Part shown: positions 1,622 through 22,988 of the stretch, in pieces
Numbering within the stretch: position 1 is the stretch's first letter
Layout of the letters: each line of letters opens with the position of its first letter
Notes under the pieces: generated by a model
The model's input: the letters and a program-made list of their open reading frames with translations, nothing else
Database searches by the model: none
Told to the model about the DNA's origin: nothing
Translations under genes and position numbers: made by a program
Source: Acidimicrobiales bacterium
GTDB taxonomy: Bacteria > Actinomycetota > Acidimicrobiia > Acidimicrobiales > GCA-2861595
NCBI GenBank assembly: GCA_030448025.1
Contig: JAUJNQ010000003.1
Coordinates: forward strand, 274,486 to 321,869
Length of the DNA stretch: 47,384 nucleotides
Direction of reading: 5' to 3'

Positions 1622-2365
1622 TTACCGCCGGACGCTCCCCCGACGGCGGTACGAGCGCCGCTGCTTCGTCGCCCTGCGCTTGGCTTTGGTGCAGCGCTGC
1701 GTACGCGTCAACCGCGTGACGCGCCGGCCGCCGACCCTGCGGGTGACACGGAGCGTCCGCGTGCTGCAACGCCGACCGGACCTGGCGGCCGCGGACCTGA
1801 CGCGGGCGGACCTGGCGGCCGGACCCGCTGTACTCGACATGACGTTCGGCGCAACACCGCCGGTGCGGGCGAACATCTGCGTCATCCAGATACGACCGTC
1901 GCCCCCGACCGCGACCCCGACGCCGGCGGTGTTGAAGTTGCCGAGGATTGCAGAACGGTGGGTGGGAGACGCCATGAACAAGCTCGTGATCGTGGCGACC
2001 GACGGACCCTGACCCACGTTCTCGGCTGCCCCCGTGTACGAGGGCAGCACCGAGTTCACCTCGCCGGCGAGGTTGCTGCTGTGGAAGAGGCTCCCACTGG
2101 CCGCCATCTGCGCCGACTGCTGTTGGGCCAGAGCCGTGAGGCCTCCGTCCTCGGACACCGGGGGCAGCCCTGCGGCTGTTCGGGGGCCGTTCACGGAGCT
2201 GACGTCGGCGGCGGCGACGGCCGGAGCCACGAAGACCGATACCGCCGTGGCGGCCGCAGCCATCGCTCTCCATCTCGACCGCCTCCGCGGGCTCGGCCCC
2301 GCGTCGTCAACCGAGTCTTCCTCAGCCGAAACGCGTACGTGCTTCGACAAGCCCTTGAATTCCAT
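1622..2365 (-). CDS. Secreted CAP/SCP-domain protein with Arg-rich C-terminal tail
   Basis: 248 residues from the ATG at 2365 (GAAGGG nine bases upstream). A basic N-terminus is followed by a hydrophobic segment ending in AVAAADV, a likely signal peptide after about residue 50. A CAP (cysteine-rich secretory protein/PR-1) domain follows, recognised by LFHSSNLAGEV, the AENVG turn, SPTHRSAILG and the closing IWMTQMFA. CAP proteins in bacteria are extracytoplasmic and of mostly unknown function, sometimes linked to the cell wall. The last 60 or so residues are unusual: dense in Arg and Lys with two Cys and no acidic residues, possibly binding wall polymers or membranes (inference). It is divergent from the MerR-like gene at 2791. 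Confidence 0.85.
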   Translation of the reverse strand: MEFKGLSKHVRVSAEEDSVDDAGPSPRRRSRWRAMAAAATAVSVFVAPAVAAADVSSVNGPRTAAGLPPVSEDGGLTALAQQQSAQMAASGSLFHSSNLAGEVNSVLPSYTGAAENVGQGPSVATITSLFMASPTHRSAILGNFNTAGVGVAVGGDGRIWMTQMFARTGGVAPNVMSSTAGPAARSARVRSAAARSGRRCSTRTLRVTRRVGGRRVTRLTRTQRCTKAKRRATKQRRSYRRRGSVRR

Positions 2366-2790
2366 TGGATCCGCCCTTCTCCATGGGGCTGCCGCCCGCA
2401 CCGCACAACCTGGTCCCCGGTGACCTGGTCCTTGGGTGGGTGAGGCCGCGCCGCCGCAACGTCTTTGAACCGGGGTGCCGAAACTGTATCGCCCCCACCA
2501 TCCAGGAGGCAACCACGGTCCGCTTTCGTCCGGCCTCGGTCCGCGTCCGACGAGGGCAACCAGGCCCTCTGGCCGCCGGCATCGTCCTCCAGAGCGGTGA
2601 TCGGTCAGGGACACCGACGACCACCGGGGTAAGGCATGTCCCAGACGCTTATGACTCCAGAAAGCCCCGCGTTTCGGCGCTTTGGGCCGGTACAGCGAGG
2701 GCACAGCCGAGCGAACTCATGACTGCAACCGTTGCACGCCCGCTTGGCCTTTCGTTTGGCGTTGCGGGCTCTTGGTCGTACGCTCGGGTA
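2366..2790. other. 425-bp divergent intergenic region with a direct repeat
   Basis: The region separates the CAP gene (minus) and the MerR-like gene (plus), and no convincing ORF is present. The nine-base word ACCTGGTCC occurs at 2408-2416 and 2423-2431, a period of 15 bases, close to the CAP start. It could be a regulator site, but this is only suggestive. I looked for a c-di-AMP (ydaO) riboswitch, common ahead of wall-hydrolase genes in Actinobacteria, and did not find its conserved blocks. Confidence 0.4.
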
Positions 2791-3666
2791 ATGAAGTCCG
2801 GCGCAAACGGAAAGAGGCGGCGGCGCCGACCGAGCCGTTACACCGTCGGCGACGTGGCCGAGCGAACCGCCCTAACTCCCCGAACGATCCGCTCCTACCA
2901 GACCCAGGGGCTCCTGCCCCCGCCCGAGCGTCATGGCCGCGTCGCCTACTACGACGACTCCCACCTCGAGCGCCTCGAAGAGATCGGCGAGCTGAAGGAA
3001 GACGGTCTGAGCCTCGCCACCATCCAGGACGTGCTTGCCCGACGAGAGACCGAGAACCGCGCCAAGGCCACCAGGGCGAAGGCCAGAGCGAAGGCCGACG
3101 CTCCTTCGAGGCCGCCGGCCTCGACGACTGCCGAGCGCGGTGTGGCGACGAGCGCGCCCAAGGCGGCCAGCGGTGCCGCCGAGTCAGTGGTCGACGTTGG
3201 CGCGGGCACGACCCGTGTGCCCGTGCTGGGCATCGATCCCGACGCCAAGAGGAGCGACGACGCCGAATCCCCGAGGAGACGCCTGGGCGTGGTCGCTGCA
3301 GTGGTCCTTGTACTGCTCCTCAGCGTCGCCGCAGTGAGCTCGGTGGTCGCCGTCATGAGCCTCAGCGCCGCCGACGACGACAGGAAGCGGCTCGGCCGCC
3401 AAGTGTCCGATCTCCAGAGTGACCTCTCCCGGCTCGACGGCAACCAAGGCCCGCCGCTGACCGTCGTGGTCCCAGGTCCGGTCCAGCAGCCGCCTGCCCC
3501 GGGCGCGCCACCCACCACCGCTCCTCCATCCACCAGGACGGTCGTCGTCACGACGCCACGTCAAGCGCCCGCTGCCCCGCCCCCCGCCCCGCCCGCCACC
3601 ACCCCTGCCTCTCCGCCGACGACGCGGCCCTGCACCCTCAACCTCCTCGGCGCCTGCGTCCCCTGA
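2791..3666 (+). CDS. MerR-type HTH protein with a transmembrane anchor and Pro/Thr-rich tail
   Basis: 291 residues from the ATG at 2791. Residues about 14-90 form a MerR winged helix: YTVGDVAERTALTPRTIRSY, then QGLLPPPERHGRVAYYDDS and the LEEIGELKEDGLSLATIQDVL arm. A charged Ala/Lys linker follows. At about 164-189 there is one clear membrane helix (GVVAAVVLVLLLSVAAVSS), preceded by Arg residues that predict a cytoplasmic N-terminus. Next comes a short coiled coil (about 195-216), then a Pro/Thr/Ala-rich tail ending with two Cys (TRPCTLNLLGACVP). Ordinary MerR proteins are soluble dimers, so this is an unusual one-component, membrane-tethered layout. The downstream gene is a class A PBP and the divergent gene a CAP protein, which suggests envelope-linked control (inference). 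The upstream ribosome site is weak. Confidence 0.85.
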   Translation: MKSGANGKRRRRRPSRYTVGDVAERTALTPRTIRSYQTQGLLPPPERHGRVAYYDDSHLERLEEIGELKEDGLSLATIQDVLARRETENRAKATRAKARAKADAPSRPPASTTAERGVATSAPKAASGAAESVVDVGAGTTRVPVLGIDPDAKRSDDAESPRRRLGVVAAVVLVLLLSVAAVSSVVAVMSLSAADDDRKRLGRQVSDLQSDLSRLDGNQGPPLTVVVPGPVQQPPAPGAPPTTAPPSTRTVVVTTPRQAPAAPPPAPPATTPASPPTTRPCTLNLLGACVP

Positions 3667-3777
3667 CCGGGCTCGAAGATGATGGGCGCCACCTCCGAGC
3701 GGTCGCCGCTCTGACGGTCGCCTCCAGTCGGACCGCTGACCGGCGTCGAGCCACCCGTGGCGCGAGACTTGGGATCC

Positions 3778-6000
3778 ATGGATCACCGTCCTCTGGCCCG
3801 TGCCTGCCGCATCGTGGTCCTCTTGGCAGCCCTCACTCCCCTCCTCGTGACCCTGACCGTGTGGATGGTGTGGCGCTACGGCGGGGGTTCCGGGGAGTTC
3901 CCCGAGCCCACCGCCCCGGAGGGTGGCGCGGTCAGTCGCGTGTTCGACGTGAACGGGCAGCAGATCGGGCAGTTCCAGCAGTTCGACCAGAACATCCCGT
4001 TCAAGGAGGGCGACATCCCGCTCCGCCTGAAGCAGGCGGTCGTCGCCGCCGAGGACAAGTCCTTCTACTCCCACGGAGGCGTGGACCCGCGAGGCCTGAC
4101 TCGAGCGGTTCGAGCCGACATCCTCTCTCAGGAGATCATCCAGGGCGGCTCCACCATCACCCAGCAATACGTTCGGAACGCGTACACGGGCAGGGAGCGG
4201 ACGTCGGGACGAAAGCTCCGCGAGGTCGTGCTGGCCGGGAGACTCGACCGGAGGATGGCCAAGGACGAGATCCTGTTCAAGTACCTCTCCACCCTCTACC
4301 TGGGCGAAGGCTCCTACGGCGTGGGCGCCGCCTCGGAGAATTACTTCCGCAAGCCCGTGAGCCAGCTCAACCTCTCGGAGGCAGCCCTGCTGGCCGGGCT
4401 GATACCGGCCCCGAGCCGCTACGAGCCCCGTGGCGACCCCGGCGCCGCAGAGGAGAAGCGACGGATCGTTCTGGACAAGATGCTCGAAGAGGGCTACATC
4501 ACGACCGACGAGCACGCCGAAGCCTCGGCGCAGAGCATCTGGACGGCGGCCAACGTGGTCCCCAGCCGACCGGCCACCGTGATCTTCCCCCCTCAGCAGG
4601 CGGTCCCCAAGTACCCCTACTTCTTCGACTACCTGCGTCGCTACCTCGTCGGCAAGTACGGTCCCGAGGCCCTCTTCAAGGGTGGCCTCGAGATCCATAC
4701 GACGCTCGACCCCAAGCGGCAGGCGGCAGCCGAGAAGTCGGTCTCCGACGCTCTGTCGGGCACCAGCCCTCCCCTTGAGATGGCCCTCACCGCCGTCGAG
4801 CCCGAAACCGGCTTCGTGCGGGCCATGGTGGGTGGGCGAGACTTCTTCGCGCCCGGCGGCCAGGCCAACCTGGCCCTCGGCGGCTGCTCCCGACCGCCCG
4901 AGAGGCTCGAGGACAAGGTCGACGTCTCAGCCACGTGCTGGGACCCAAAGGCCAATGCCGTGGTGGGAGGGGGCACCGGGCGCCAGGCGGGCTCCTCGTG
5001 GAAGCCGATTGTCCTGGCCGCCGCCCTCGCCAAGGGCATACCCGAGACCAAGGCGTACCCGGCCCCGAGCACGTACCGGTTCAAGGGGTGCAAGGGTGAT
5101 CAGGGCTGCACGATCCAGAACTACGAGGGCAGCGGCGGCGGCAGCGCCAACCTCAGGAGCGCCACGGCGCGGTCGATCAACACCGTCTACGCCCAGCTCA
5201 TCGGGGACGTGGGGGTCAAGGAGACCGCCGAGATGGCCAAGAAGCTGGGCATTACGTCGGCGTGGGTGGCCACCCCCGAGATCCACGGGCCCAGCTATTC
5301 CATCGGCACGCAGGAGGTGGCGCCCCTCGACATGGCCTCGGCCTTCGGCGTGTTCGCCAACCAGGGCAGACGCGCCCCGGCCACACCCGTGGAGTGGATC
5401 CGGGCGCCCGACGGCAGCTCGCGCGAGGACAACCGTCGCCGCAGCCCGGAGCGGGTCCTCGACCCCGGCGTGGCCAGCCAGGTCACCGACATCTTGAAGG
5501 GCGTCATCTCGGGCGGCACGGGCACGAACGCCGACATCGGACGCCCCGCCGCGGGCAAGACAGGCACGGCACAGGAGTGGCGAGACGCCTGGTTCGTGGG
5601 CTACACGCCGCAGCTGTCGACGGCGGTGTGGATCGGAAACCGAGACCGGCCGACCTCGCTCTTCGGGATCAAGGGTGTGCCCCGCGTCACGGGCGGCTCC
5701 ATTCCCGCCGAGACGTGGAAGGCCTTCATGACCGAGGCACTGAGGGAGGTGCCGCCCACCGATTTCACCGGAGCTCCGGCTCCTGCGGTGGCGCCTGTAC
5801 CCCTCGTTCCGGCTCCCACGGCCCCCCGCACTCCTCCTGACACGCCGCCCACCTCCTTACCCACCGGTGATCCTTCGCAGCCCTTCTCCCGGGACACACC
5901 CTTCGGGCCCTTCGGCCCATACGGGCCACCCGGCGGCAACGACCAAGGTGCAACGACCACGACCACCGTGCCCCGGCCTCCTCCGGACCTCGTCCCATGA
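3778..6000 (+). CDS. Class A penicillin-binding protein (transglycosylase-transpeptidase)
   Basis: A bifunctional peptidoglycan synthase that polymerises lipid II and cross-links stem peptides at the outer face of the membrane. A short basic N-terminus precedes one membrane helix (about 10-30). The GT51 transglycosylase domain shows EDKSFYSHGGVDPRG with catalytic Glu near 92, the GGSTITQQ motif and KDEILFKYLSTLYLGEG. The transpeptidase domain has SSWK (nucleophile Ser near 405), SIN (about 465) and KTGTAQEW (about 595). The C-terminal 80 residues are Pro/Thr-rich and probably extend into the wall. I chose the ATG at 3778; a GTG at 3757 would add seven residues, and neither has a strong ribosome site. 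It follows the membrane MerR gene by 111 bases. Confidence 0.95.
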   Translation: MDHRPLARACRIVVLLAALTPLLVTLTVWMVWRYGGGSGEFPEPTAPEGGAVSRVFDVNGQQIGQFQQFDQNIPFKEGDIPLRLKQAVVAAEDKSFYSHGGVDPRGLTRAVRADILSQEIIQGGSTITQQYVRNAYTGRERTSGRKLREVVLAGRLDRRMAKDEILFKYLSTLYLGEGSYGVGAASENYFRKPVSQLNLSEAALLAGLIPAPSRYEPRGDPGAAEEKRRIVLDKMLEEGYITTDEHAEASAQSIWTAANVVPSRPATVIFPPQQAVPKYPYFFDYLRRYLVGKYGPEALFKGGLEIHTTLDPKRQAAAEKSVSDALSGTSPPLEMALTAVEPETGFVRAMVGGRDFFAPGGQANLALGGCSRPPERLEDKVDVSATCWDPKANAVVGGGTGRQAGSSWKPIVLAAALAKGIPETKAYPAPSTYRFKGCKGDQGCTIQNYEGSGGGSANLRSATARSINTVYAQLIGDVGVKETAEMAKKLGITSAWVATPEIHGPSYSIGTQEVAPLDMASAFGVFANQGRRAPATPVEWIRAPDGSSREDNRRRSPERVLDPGVASQVTDILKGVISGGTGTNADIGRPAAGKTGTAQEWRDAWFVGYTPQLSTAVWIGNRDRPTSLFGIKGVPRVTGGSIPAETWKAFMTEALREVPPTDFTGAPAPAVAPVPLVPAPTAPRTPPDTPPTSLPTGDPSQPFSRDTPFGPFGPYGPPGGNDQGATTTTTVPRPPPDLVP

Positions 6001-6081: not shown

Positions 6082-6369
6082 ATGATCGTCGTCGTCATCG
6101 TCCTCGTCTGCGTGCTCTTCGCGGTGGGCACCTGTTTCATCCTCTACCAGCTGGGCGTGGTGCCAAGCCGACCGGGTTCACCAGAGCGTCCGTCGTGGGC
6201 CGCGCCGTCGATCGGAGGCCGCACCCCCCTCCAGGACGCTCGGGCTGGCGGTCGGGAGTGGCCGCAGGGCTGTCTCATCGCGCTCTTGGTGGGCGGCGGG
6301 ATCTGGTTCTTGCTCTGGGGCCTCGTCCTTGTCCTTGCCCTTCGCATCCTGAGCAACCCGTTCGGCTGA
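6082..6369 (+). CDS. Small two-helix membrane protein of unknown function
   Basis: 95 residues from an ATG preceded by TTGGGGCA. A strongly hydrophobic N-terminal helix (MIVVVIVLVCVLFAVGTC) and a second one near residues 62-88 (LIALLVGGGIWFLLWGLVL) flank a Pro/Gly/Arg-rich loop. No family is recognised. It sits 81 bases after the PBP gene on the same strand and may be co-transcribed with it. The hydrophobic pattern is unlikely in a chance frame, so I consider it real with moderate confidence. Confidence 0.6.
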   Translation: MIVVVIVLVCVLFAVGTCFILYQLGVVPSRPGSPERPSWAAPSIGGRTPLQDARAGGREWPQGCLIALLVGGGIWFLLWGLVLVLALRILSNPFG

Positions 6370-21454: not shown

Positions 21455-22988
21455 TGTCAAGCCCGGTGAGACAACTTCTCATGCGGATTTGATGAGTGCT
21501 TCGGGAGTGGGTTCGTTGATCCAGGCGATCGTGGGCAACTTCGGTGGCGTGGGCCGGCGATGGCGGAACCGGGACGGATTGGCGGCGTAAGCGGCATCGA
21601 GGGTGATGGTCCGCTGCTGGCGGATCTCCGTGGCGGTGCCGTAGTGGAGCGACGCAGGGGTGTGCAGGCCGACGCCGGCATGGCGGTGGATGTGGTTGTA
21701 GTGATCGAAGAAGTTGGCGCAGAAGGTGCGGGCGTCTTCGATCGAGCCGAACCGGCCGGGGAACGCCGGGCAGTACTTGAGGGTCTTGAAGTTCGCCTCC
21801 GAGTACGGGTTGTCGTTGCTCACGTGCGGGCGGCTGTGGCTGCGAGCCACGCCCAGGTCCACCAGTAGCTGGGCCACGGGCTTGGAGGTCATCGACGTTC
21901 CCCGATCGGCGTGCAGGGTGAGTTGATCGGCCTTGATCCCGTGGCGGTTCAAGGTGTCGGCGATGAACGCCTCGGCGAGCTCTCCGGTCTCGGCCGGGGT
22001 GACCATCCACCCCACGACGTAGCGGGAGTAGATGTCGATGATCACGAAGCACTCGTAGTACACGCCCCGGGTGGGGCCTGGAGTTTGGTGATATCCCACG
22101 ACCAAACCTGGTTCGGCCGCCGGGCGATCAGCTCGGGCTTCTTCTTGGCCGGATGGGTGCGCTGGCGGCGCCGCTCGCGGCTCTCGCCGGCGGCGGCCAA
22201 CAGCCGGTACATGGTCGAGATGGAGCACAGGTAGGTGCCGTCGTCGAGCAGGCGGGCCCATAACCTGGGCCGGGGCCAGGTCGCAGTACTCCTCCGAGCG
22301 CAGCACGGCCAGGATCTCCTGGCGCTCGGCCTCACTCAGCGCATTCGGTGGCGTGGGCCGAGGGGCAGGCGGGGCCGAGGTGGCTGTGCACCGGCGCCGG
22401 TAGTGGGTGGCGCGAGGCTTGCCCAACAGCTCGCACGCCCGCTTGGCCGACGTGGCCTCGACCAGCTCGGCGAAGGCAGGCTCGATCACGGCTTCGACTT
22501 CGGGTCGCAGTCCGCGCTCTCGGAGAGCAGCTCCAAGAGCGCGTGCTTTTCCCGTGATCTCCAGCGCAAGCTTGGTGCGGGCCAGCTCCGCCTCGAGCCG
22601 CTCGGCGCGGCGACGGACCTTGTCCAGCTCGACCTGCTCAGGCGAACGCTTGGCCTTGCGGCCCTTGGCGGTCAGGCCTTCGATGGCACCGGCGTCTCGG
22701 ACCTTGCGCCACTCGGCGATGTGGGAGGTGTAGAGACCCTCTCGGCGCAGCAGCGCTCCTCGTCCCTCCGAACCAGCCGGCAGGGCGTCGTACTCGTCGA
22801 GGATGCGGGCCTTGTATTCGGCTGTGAACGAGCGTCGGCGAGGCCGGGCGGCCGGGTCAGGCTCGTCCACCGCCCCATCATGGGCGCGCGCCATCAAAGA
22901 TGCAGTCGTCATGGTCATCGGTCTACGTGTTCCTGTCTCGCCCTGTAGGGATGGTCAGGTGCAGCAGGTGTCTCACGTCAGCCTGACA
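21455..22988 (-). mobile_element. IS3-like insertion sequence, about 1.53 kb, with imperfect terminal inverted repeats
   Basis: The left end TGTCAAGCCCGGTGAGACAA (from 21455) and the inverted right end TGTCAGGCTGACGTGAGACA (from 22988) match over about 22 bases with a few differences. They enclose one transposase frame on the minus strand. Size, the TG start and an orfA-like HTH plus DDE domain fit the IS3 family. No clean target duplication is visible (GAACG on the left, GACAG on the right), so the insertion may be old or one end slightly off. Confidence 0.75.
21479..22918 (-). pseudogene. IS3-like transposase, internally frameshifted twice
   Basis: The N-terminal part (RRRSFTAEYKARILDEYDAL, then RREGLYTSHIAEWRKVRDAG) is a transposase HTH, and a coiled segment (EQVELDKVRRRAERLEAELA) follows. 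The C-terminal half has the rve/DDE domain: ECFVIIDIYSRYVVGWMV, LHADRGTSMTSKPVAQLL and NPYSEANFKTLKY with the last Glu. Between about 22078 and 22261 the coding sequence is in another frame. There it reads WARLLDDGTYLCSISTMYRL and PNQVWSWDITKL, the latter holding the first catalytic Asp. One extra base near 22261 and one missing base near 22078 compensate, so the open frame never stops but its product lacks that Asp. Probably inactive. Confidence 0.8.

Follow-up and report, generated by a model that had tools for sequence, protein, structure and literature searches.

A MerR-type DNA-binding head joined to a predicted membrane helix and a Pro/Thr-rich tail in an Acidimicrobiales bacterium

MerR regulators are cytoplasmic proteins that distort promoter DNA as tight dimers. 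GlnR and TnrA, which have a MerR head, are soluble and under the control of glutamine synthetase. RodZ consists of a cytoplasmic helix-turn-helix (HTH), one helix and an external part. In CadC and ToxR, a cytoplasmic winged helix of the OmpR type is joined through one helix to an external part. The breadth of such arrangements has been surveyed: 50,302 transmembrane transcription regulators (TTRs), defined as proteins for which both a DNA-binding domain and a transmembrane region are predicted, have been counted, about 56% of them single-pass and about 57% without any other recognisable domain (PMC10269533). HigX of Caulobacter is a membrane regulator that binds promoters of envelope genes and cannot act without its membrane part (PMC13384398), while RocS of Streptococcus pneumoniae and RacA pair a MerR-type winged helix and a coiled coil with a membrane or polar anchor (PMC11500499). 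Proteins of the RocS/RacA type apart, text searches of the open-access literature gave no description of a membrane-anchored MerR regulator.

The protein considered here is encoded near one end of a stretch of 47,384 nucleotides (the window, to which all positions refer). Like the TTRs it holds a DNA-binding domain (PF13411, 74.9 bits) and a transmembrane region (residues 161-195, maximum 2.83 on the Kyte-Doolittle scale) in one frame, is predicted to be single-pass, and has no sensor domain that Pfam recognises anywhere in its 291 residues; as judged from its sequence, it falls under the definition of this class. It resembles CadC and ToxR in the predicted order of a cytoplasmic winged helix, one helix and an external part, but its head is of the MerR type, the OmpR-type winged helix (Trans_reg_C) being absent from the Pfam matches with E of 1 or less, and no folded external sensor is recognised. 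With GlnR and TnrA, which are its best matches by sequence in the PDB, it shares the MerR head. The heads of the closest cytosolic actinobacterial MerR regulators (for example L010 and L171) are 57-58% identical to its own, whereas in those proteins a C-terminal region of about 160-235 residues without a membrane helix takes the place of linker, helix and tail.

Parts of the protein and its reading frame

The reading frame runs through 2791-3666 without interruption (Table 1). Four neighbouring genes served to train a codon model, with which the six frames were compared in 90-base windows; this frame scored highest from 2840 to about 3460, that is, over the head, the linker, the membrane helix and the coiled coil, with a tie at 3290 with one antisense frame; the Pro/Thr-rich tail scored close to neutral, as low-complexity sequence often does. 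Since the best codon score extends across both the head and the membrane helix, we read one gene and not two, and a start or stop error separating the HTH from the membrane part, an arrangement that we considered, is ruled out by this single coding frame. The protein was seen in one assembled genome.

Table 1. Features of the locus (window positions)
Feature	Position	Strand	Basis
Secreted CAP-domain protein, divergent neighbour	1622..2365	-	PF00188, E 1.3e-11
Intergenic region from CAP to MerR gene, 425 bases	2366..2790		no frame clearly coding (codon model)
Possible -10 element TACGCT	2779..2784	+	read from sequence
Membrane-anchored MerR-type protein (predicted), 291 aa (P0001)	2791..3666	+	translation, Pfam, hydropathy, codon score, AF2 model
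Basic N-terminal arm, residues 1-16, 8 K/R	2791..2838	+	composition
MerR_1 winged helix-turn-helix, residues 17-83	2839..3039	+	PF13411, AF2 model, Foldseek
Linker (residues 84-163), charged, largely disordered and predicted cytoplasmic, its helix reaching to about residue 102	3040..3279	+	AF2 model
Single predicted transmembrane helix, residues about 164-192	3280..3366	+	hydropathy, AF2 helix
Probable extracytoplasmic coiled coil, residues 193-217	3367..3441	+	heptad pattern
Pro/Thr-rich tail, residues 218-291, ending RPCTLNLLGACVP	3442..3663	+	composition, motif comparison
Class A PBP, downstream neighbour	3778..6000	+	PF00912, PF00905 (Transgly + Transpeptidase)

The head matches PF13411 (MerR_1) with an E value of 5.6e-21, its 74.9 bits lying above the cut-off of 21.6, and is modelled at a pLDDT of about 91 in an AF2 single-sequence model, for which Foldseek retrieves the MerR-family structures GlnR, CadR and PbrR; the PDB sequence search added TnrA, TipA and CueR to GlnR and CadR. 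Within residues 17-83 the head retains 22 of the 25 columns that are conserved among related heads, including R34, Y36, R50, Y54, H58 and R61. PF09278 (MerR-DNA-bind), taken as a proxy for the C-terminal dimerisation helix region, reaches 13.4 bits against a cut-off of 25.4, a weak proxy given that some cytosolic MerR relatives also fall below this cut-off. No MerR equivalog of NCBIfam reaches its cut-off for the 291-residue protein, the HspR equivalog scoring 40.7 bits against 105. The PADLOC profile mad1 (MADS) matches residues 15-62 (2833-2976; E 1.7e-11), and because this match covers the HTH portion alone we claim no defence role.

Behind the head, most of residues 113-160 in the linker have a pLDDT below 50. 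The hydrophobic segment at 161-195 is the only one in the protein and lies in a single modelled helix, 161-216, with PRRR before the membrane segment and ADDDRKR after it; the basic PRRR in front and the ADDD behind favour a head inside and a tail outside, and we infer a cytoplasmic head and an external tail. In the segment that follows the membrane, L201, V205, L208, L212 and L215 form a regular heptad with 4-3-4-3 spacing, a pattern that shuffles of the segment reach with p of about 1.5e-4 (20,000 shuffles). Proline and threonine make up 35 of the last 74 residues (47%). The original prediction had described these same parts, a MerR-type head, a single membrane helix at about 164-189, a short coiled coil and an external Pro/Thr-rich tail, as a one-component membrane receptor in principle. 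Head, helix and a coiled-coil pattern were all borne out by the analyses above, the external tail is probable from the charges flanking the helix, and the receptor layout is supported in principle. At the level of sequence, a head, a helix, a coiled-coil pattern and a tail are thus encoded by one gene.

What might such a protein do? We give a probability of about 0.5 to its being a single-pass, membrane-tethered one-component transcription regulator, dimeric, whose tail senses the envelope. The MerR-type head would bind DNA in the cytoplasm, the linker of about 80 residues would let it reach the chromosome, and the membrane helix and short external coiled coil would hold two copies together, in place of the dimerisation and effector region found at the C-terminus of an ordinary MerR protein. 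The Pro/Thr-rich tail with its Cys pair would reach into the wall, where it might report the state of the envelope or bind another envelope protein. By analogy with described membrane regulators, DNA is most likely bound from the membrane by a dimer that the helix and coiled coil hold. This reading draws on the PF13411 match with its retained head columns, on one strong helix preceded by basic residues, on the regular heptad, and on a tail ending that recurs in the family. A membrane-held MerR protein of this kind would put the promoter-distortion mechanism to the test from the membrane.

Relatives, neighbours and competing explanations

The proposed search for MerR heads followed by a membrane helix and a Pro-rich tail was carried out and gave no relative with the membrane part: there is no full-length match in the five other genomes of the family, nor in 148 genomes of the order, 198 of the class and 246 of the phylum (overlapping sets). 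Every match outside the own genome starts in the head and stops before the membrane helix, the longest ending at residue 147; GTDB contigs, in which an orthologue was also sought, gave head-only matches or none, plasmids head-only matches, and phages no matches. In the own genome, the match ranking next belongs to a cytosolic MerR protein and shows 39% identity across residues 15-128; the closest heads are 52-58% identical. When the membrane and tail part was the sole query, the matches scored low (best E 3.5e-4), which is usual when a query is so rich in Pro and Thr, and the locus of the best one (L049) has no open frame of at least 100 residues at the match. Among 122 distinct MerR frames that were read out (nearly all MerR_1 matches in eight genomes, five being the others of the family and three additional, plus loci from other searches), only the protein at 2791-3666 shows a convincing membrane helix behind the head, in a sampling that, outside the eight fully censused genomes, would miss a divergent MerR-helix protein whose head falls below the best matches. 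A second candidate (L047), a frame of 138 residues with a borderline hydropathy segment (1.79), was rejected as a membrane-type MerR protein. Homologues lacking the helix had been named beforehand as evidence against the proposed architecture, and every HTH relative found does lack it, but these are head-only relatives and not orthologues. The protein looks like a lineage-specific fusion in which a common actinobacterial MerR head had its C-terminal half replaced by a new anchor, and it could be a sensor of recent, home-made origin; with no orthologue at hand, conservation offers no evidence that head and helix were selected together. If so, it would show a new membrane receptor arising in one lineage when a common regulator exchanges its C-terminal half.

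The MerR-type heads of RocS and RacA serve to tether chromosomes, which makes such a tether, positioning DNA without regulating promoters, the main rival explanation. The richness in basic residues of the N-terminal arm and linker would suit it, as does the shared combination of a MerR-type head, a coiled coil and attachment to the membrane or pole. RocS, however, ends in an amphipathic membrane helix and has no external part, whereas here a strongly hydrophobic transmembrane helix is internal and is followed by 99 residues of tail; the head is nearer to the standard actinobacterial MerR regulators, and the protein is not conserved in its family, unlike a housekeeping segregation factor. On these grounds we regard a tether as unlikely.

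As had been described, the gene lies between those of a secreted CAP protein and a class A PBP, and from this setting the original prediction went on to suggest direct control of wall genes, a suggestion that found no support in a comparison with a genome of the same genus (G005). Its PBP orthologue is 88% identical and shares the start ATG at 3778, but DNA homology begins only at 3734, after the MerR gene, and no CAP orthologue was found in this genome, which is 85% complete (best 38% identity). On our reading of the sequence, the place of the MerR gene directly upstream of the PBP is there taken by a gene for a PIG-L-type deacetylase (locus L059). The PBP of the same genus, having another gene upstream, is therefore independent of an adjacent MerR gene copy, and the adjacency, as far as these genomes tell, is lineage-specific; in the present genome the PBP may still be regulated by the MerR protein. 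After the PBP, 6082-6369 encodes a small protein of 95 residues with hydrophobic stretches whose start is conserved in the same-genus genome (93% over 59 bases), and an IS3-type transposase-like frame with an integrase-like region was read at 21479-22918 on the reverse strand.

The intergenic region upstream gave no match to a sigma-70-type promoter consensus or to a terminator consensus. The possible -10 element TACGCT stands so shortly before the ATG at 2791 that it would suit a leaderless transcript, as in actinobacterial genes. No compact MerR-type dyad or operator was seen in 2366-2790; an imperfect inverted repeat of 10 nt interrupted by 23 nt, and a pair of 7 nt separated by 47 nt, were considered as an operator and rejected, both being unlike a compact MerR dyad. 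This result counts against the regulator reading, as do the lack of a recognised sensor domain and an adjacency to possible targets that is not conserved.

A further rival, next to a PBP gene, is an envelope scaffold similar to RodZ, in which the HTH would serve protein contacts and link cytoplasmic factors to wall synthases, for example the adjacent PBP. The parts follow one another as in RodZ (an HTH in the cytoplasm, then one helix, then an extracytoplasmic part), the setting is wall-related, and the tail has an ending in common with PBP orthologues of other genera. Pfam matches with E of 1 or less include neither the RodZ HTH nor its C-terminal domain, though, the MerR head retains its DNA-binding positions, and the same-genus PBP persists without the MerR gene beside it, so that we hold a scaffold to be rather improbable.

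The same lack of an orthologue in the five family genomes and in the wider searches, together with a neighbourhood unlike that of the same-genus genome, would also be expected if an ordinary MerR head had recently been rearranged onto unrelated membrane and tail coding sequence and had no settled role. Against this speak the maintained head columns and codon pattern, the regular heptad and the recurrence of the Cys ending as a motif, and we find such a role-less fusion hard to favour. Least probable of all is a dormant regulator whose head reaches DNA only after proteolysis in the membrane region, which the single helix and long flexible linker would suit but for which neither a cleavage site nor a protease partner came to light.

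The Cys-containing ending

The tail had been predicted to end in Cys, which is nearly right: a Cys pair is present, the terminus being PCTLNLLGACVP (pattern C-x6-C-VP), but two more residues follow the last Cys. From this tail we defined, post hoc, a motif (R or K, an optional R or P, C, 1-3 residues, LL, 1-3 residues, C, at most 2 residues, end) and searched with it through 13,992 distinct frames that end in a stop codon and are 80 residues or longer. In its strict form it occurs in four of them, the MerR protein and the PBP orthologues of three other genomes of the family (G001, G003 and G004), each time in these PBPs after a Pro/Thr- or Thr-rich stretch; since the motif was defined after the fact and the frames scanned are enriched for MerR, PBP and CAP loci, we treat this as a lead and not as a statistic. 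The PBPs of the present genome and of its same-genus relative lack the motif. In partial surveys, only the MerR protein among 731 genes called in the present genome, and only the PBP among 327 called in G003, combined a C-terminus rich in Pro and Thr with two Cys at its end.

That the ending also occurs within the family on proteins of the membrane or for export favours an exported tail, and the shared Cys-ended tail offers a separate lead on the sorting of envelope proteins. A bolder proposal, which we consider a long shot, is that the Cys-ended Pro/Thr tail might be a family-wide extracytoplasmic C-terminal module, carried by PBPs, exported caspase-like proteins and the MerR regulator, that would gather proteins at one envelope site whose state the regulator would read directly.

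The terminus at 3625-3663 recurs at the ends of the PBPs at loci L060, L061 and L062. Caspase-domain proteins of G001, G003 and G004 (loci L105, L118 and L128, L118 matching PF00656) have similar ends after Pro-rich stretches, KICLLPGLCI, RLCILQGICL and KICLLPDICI. In two of them the N-terminus could be read, and both start with a signal-peptide-like segment.
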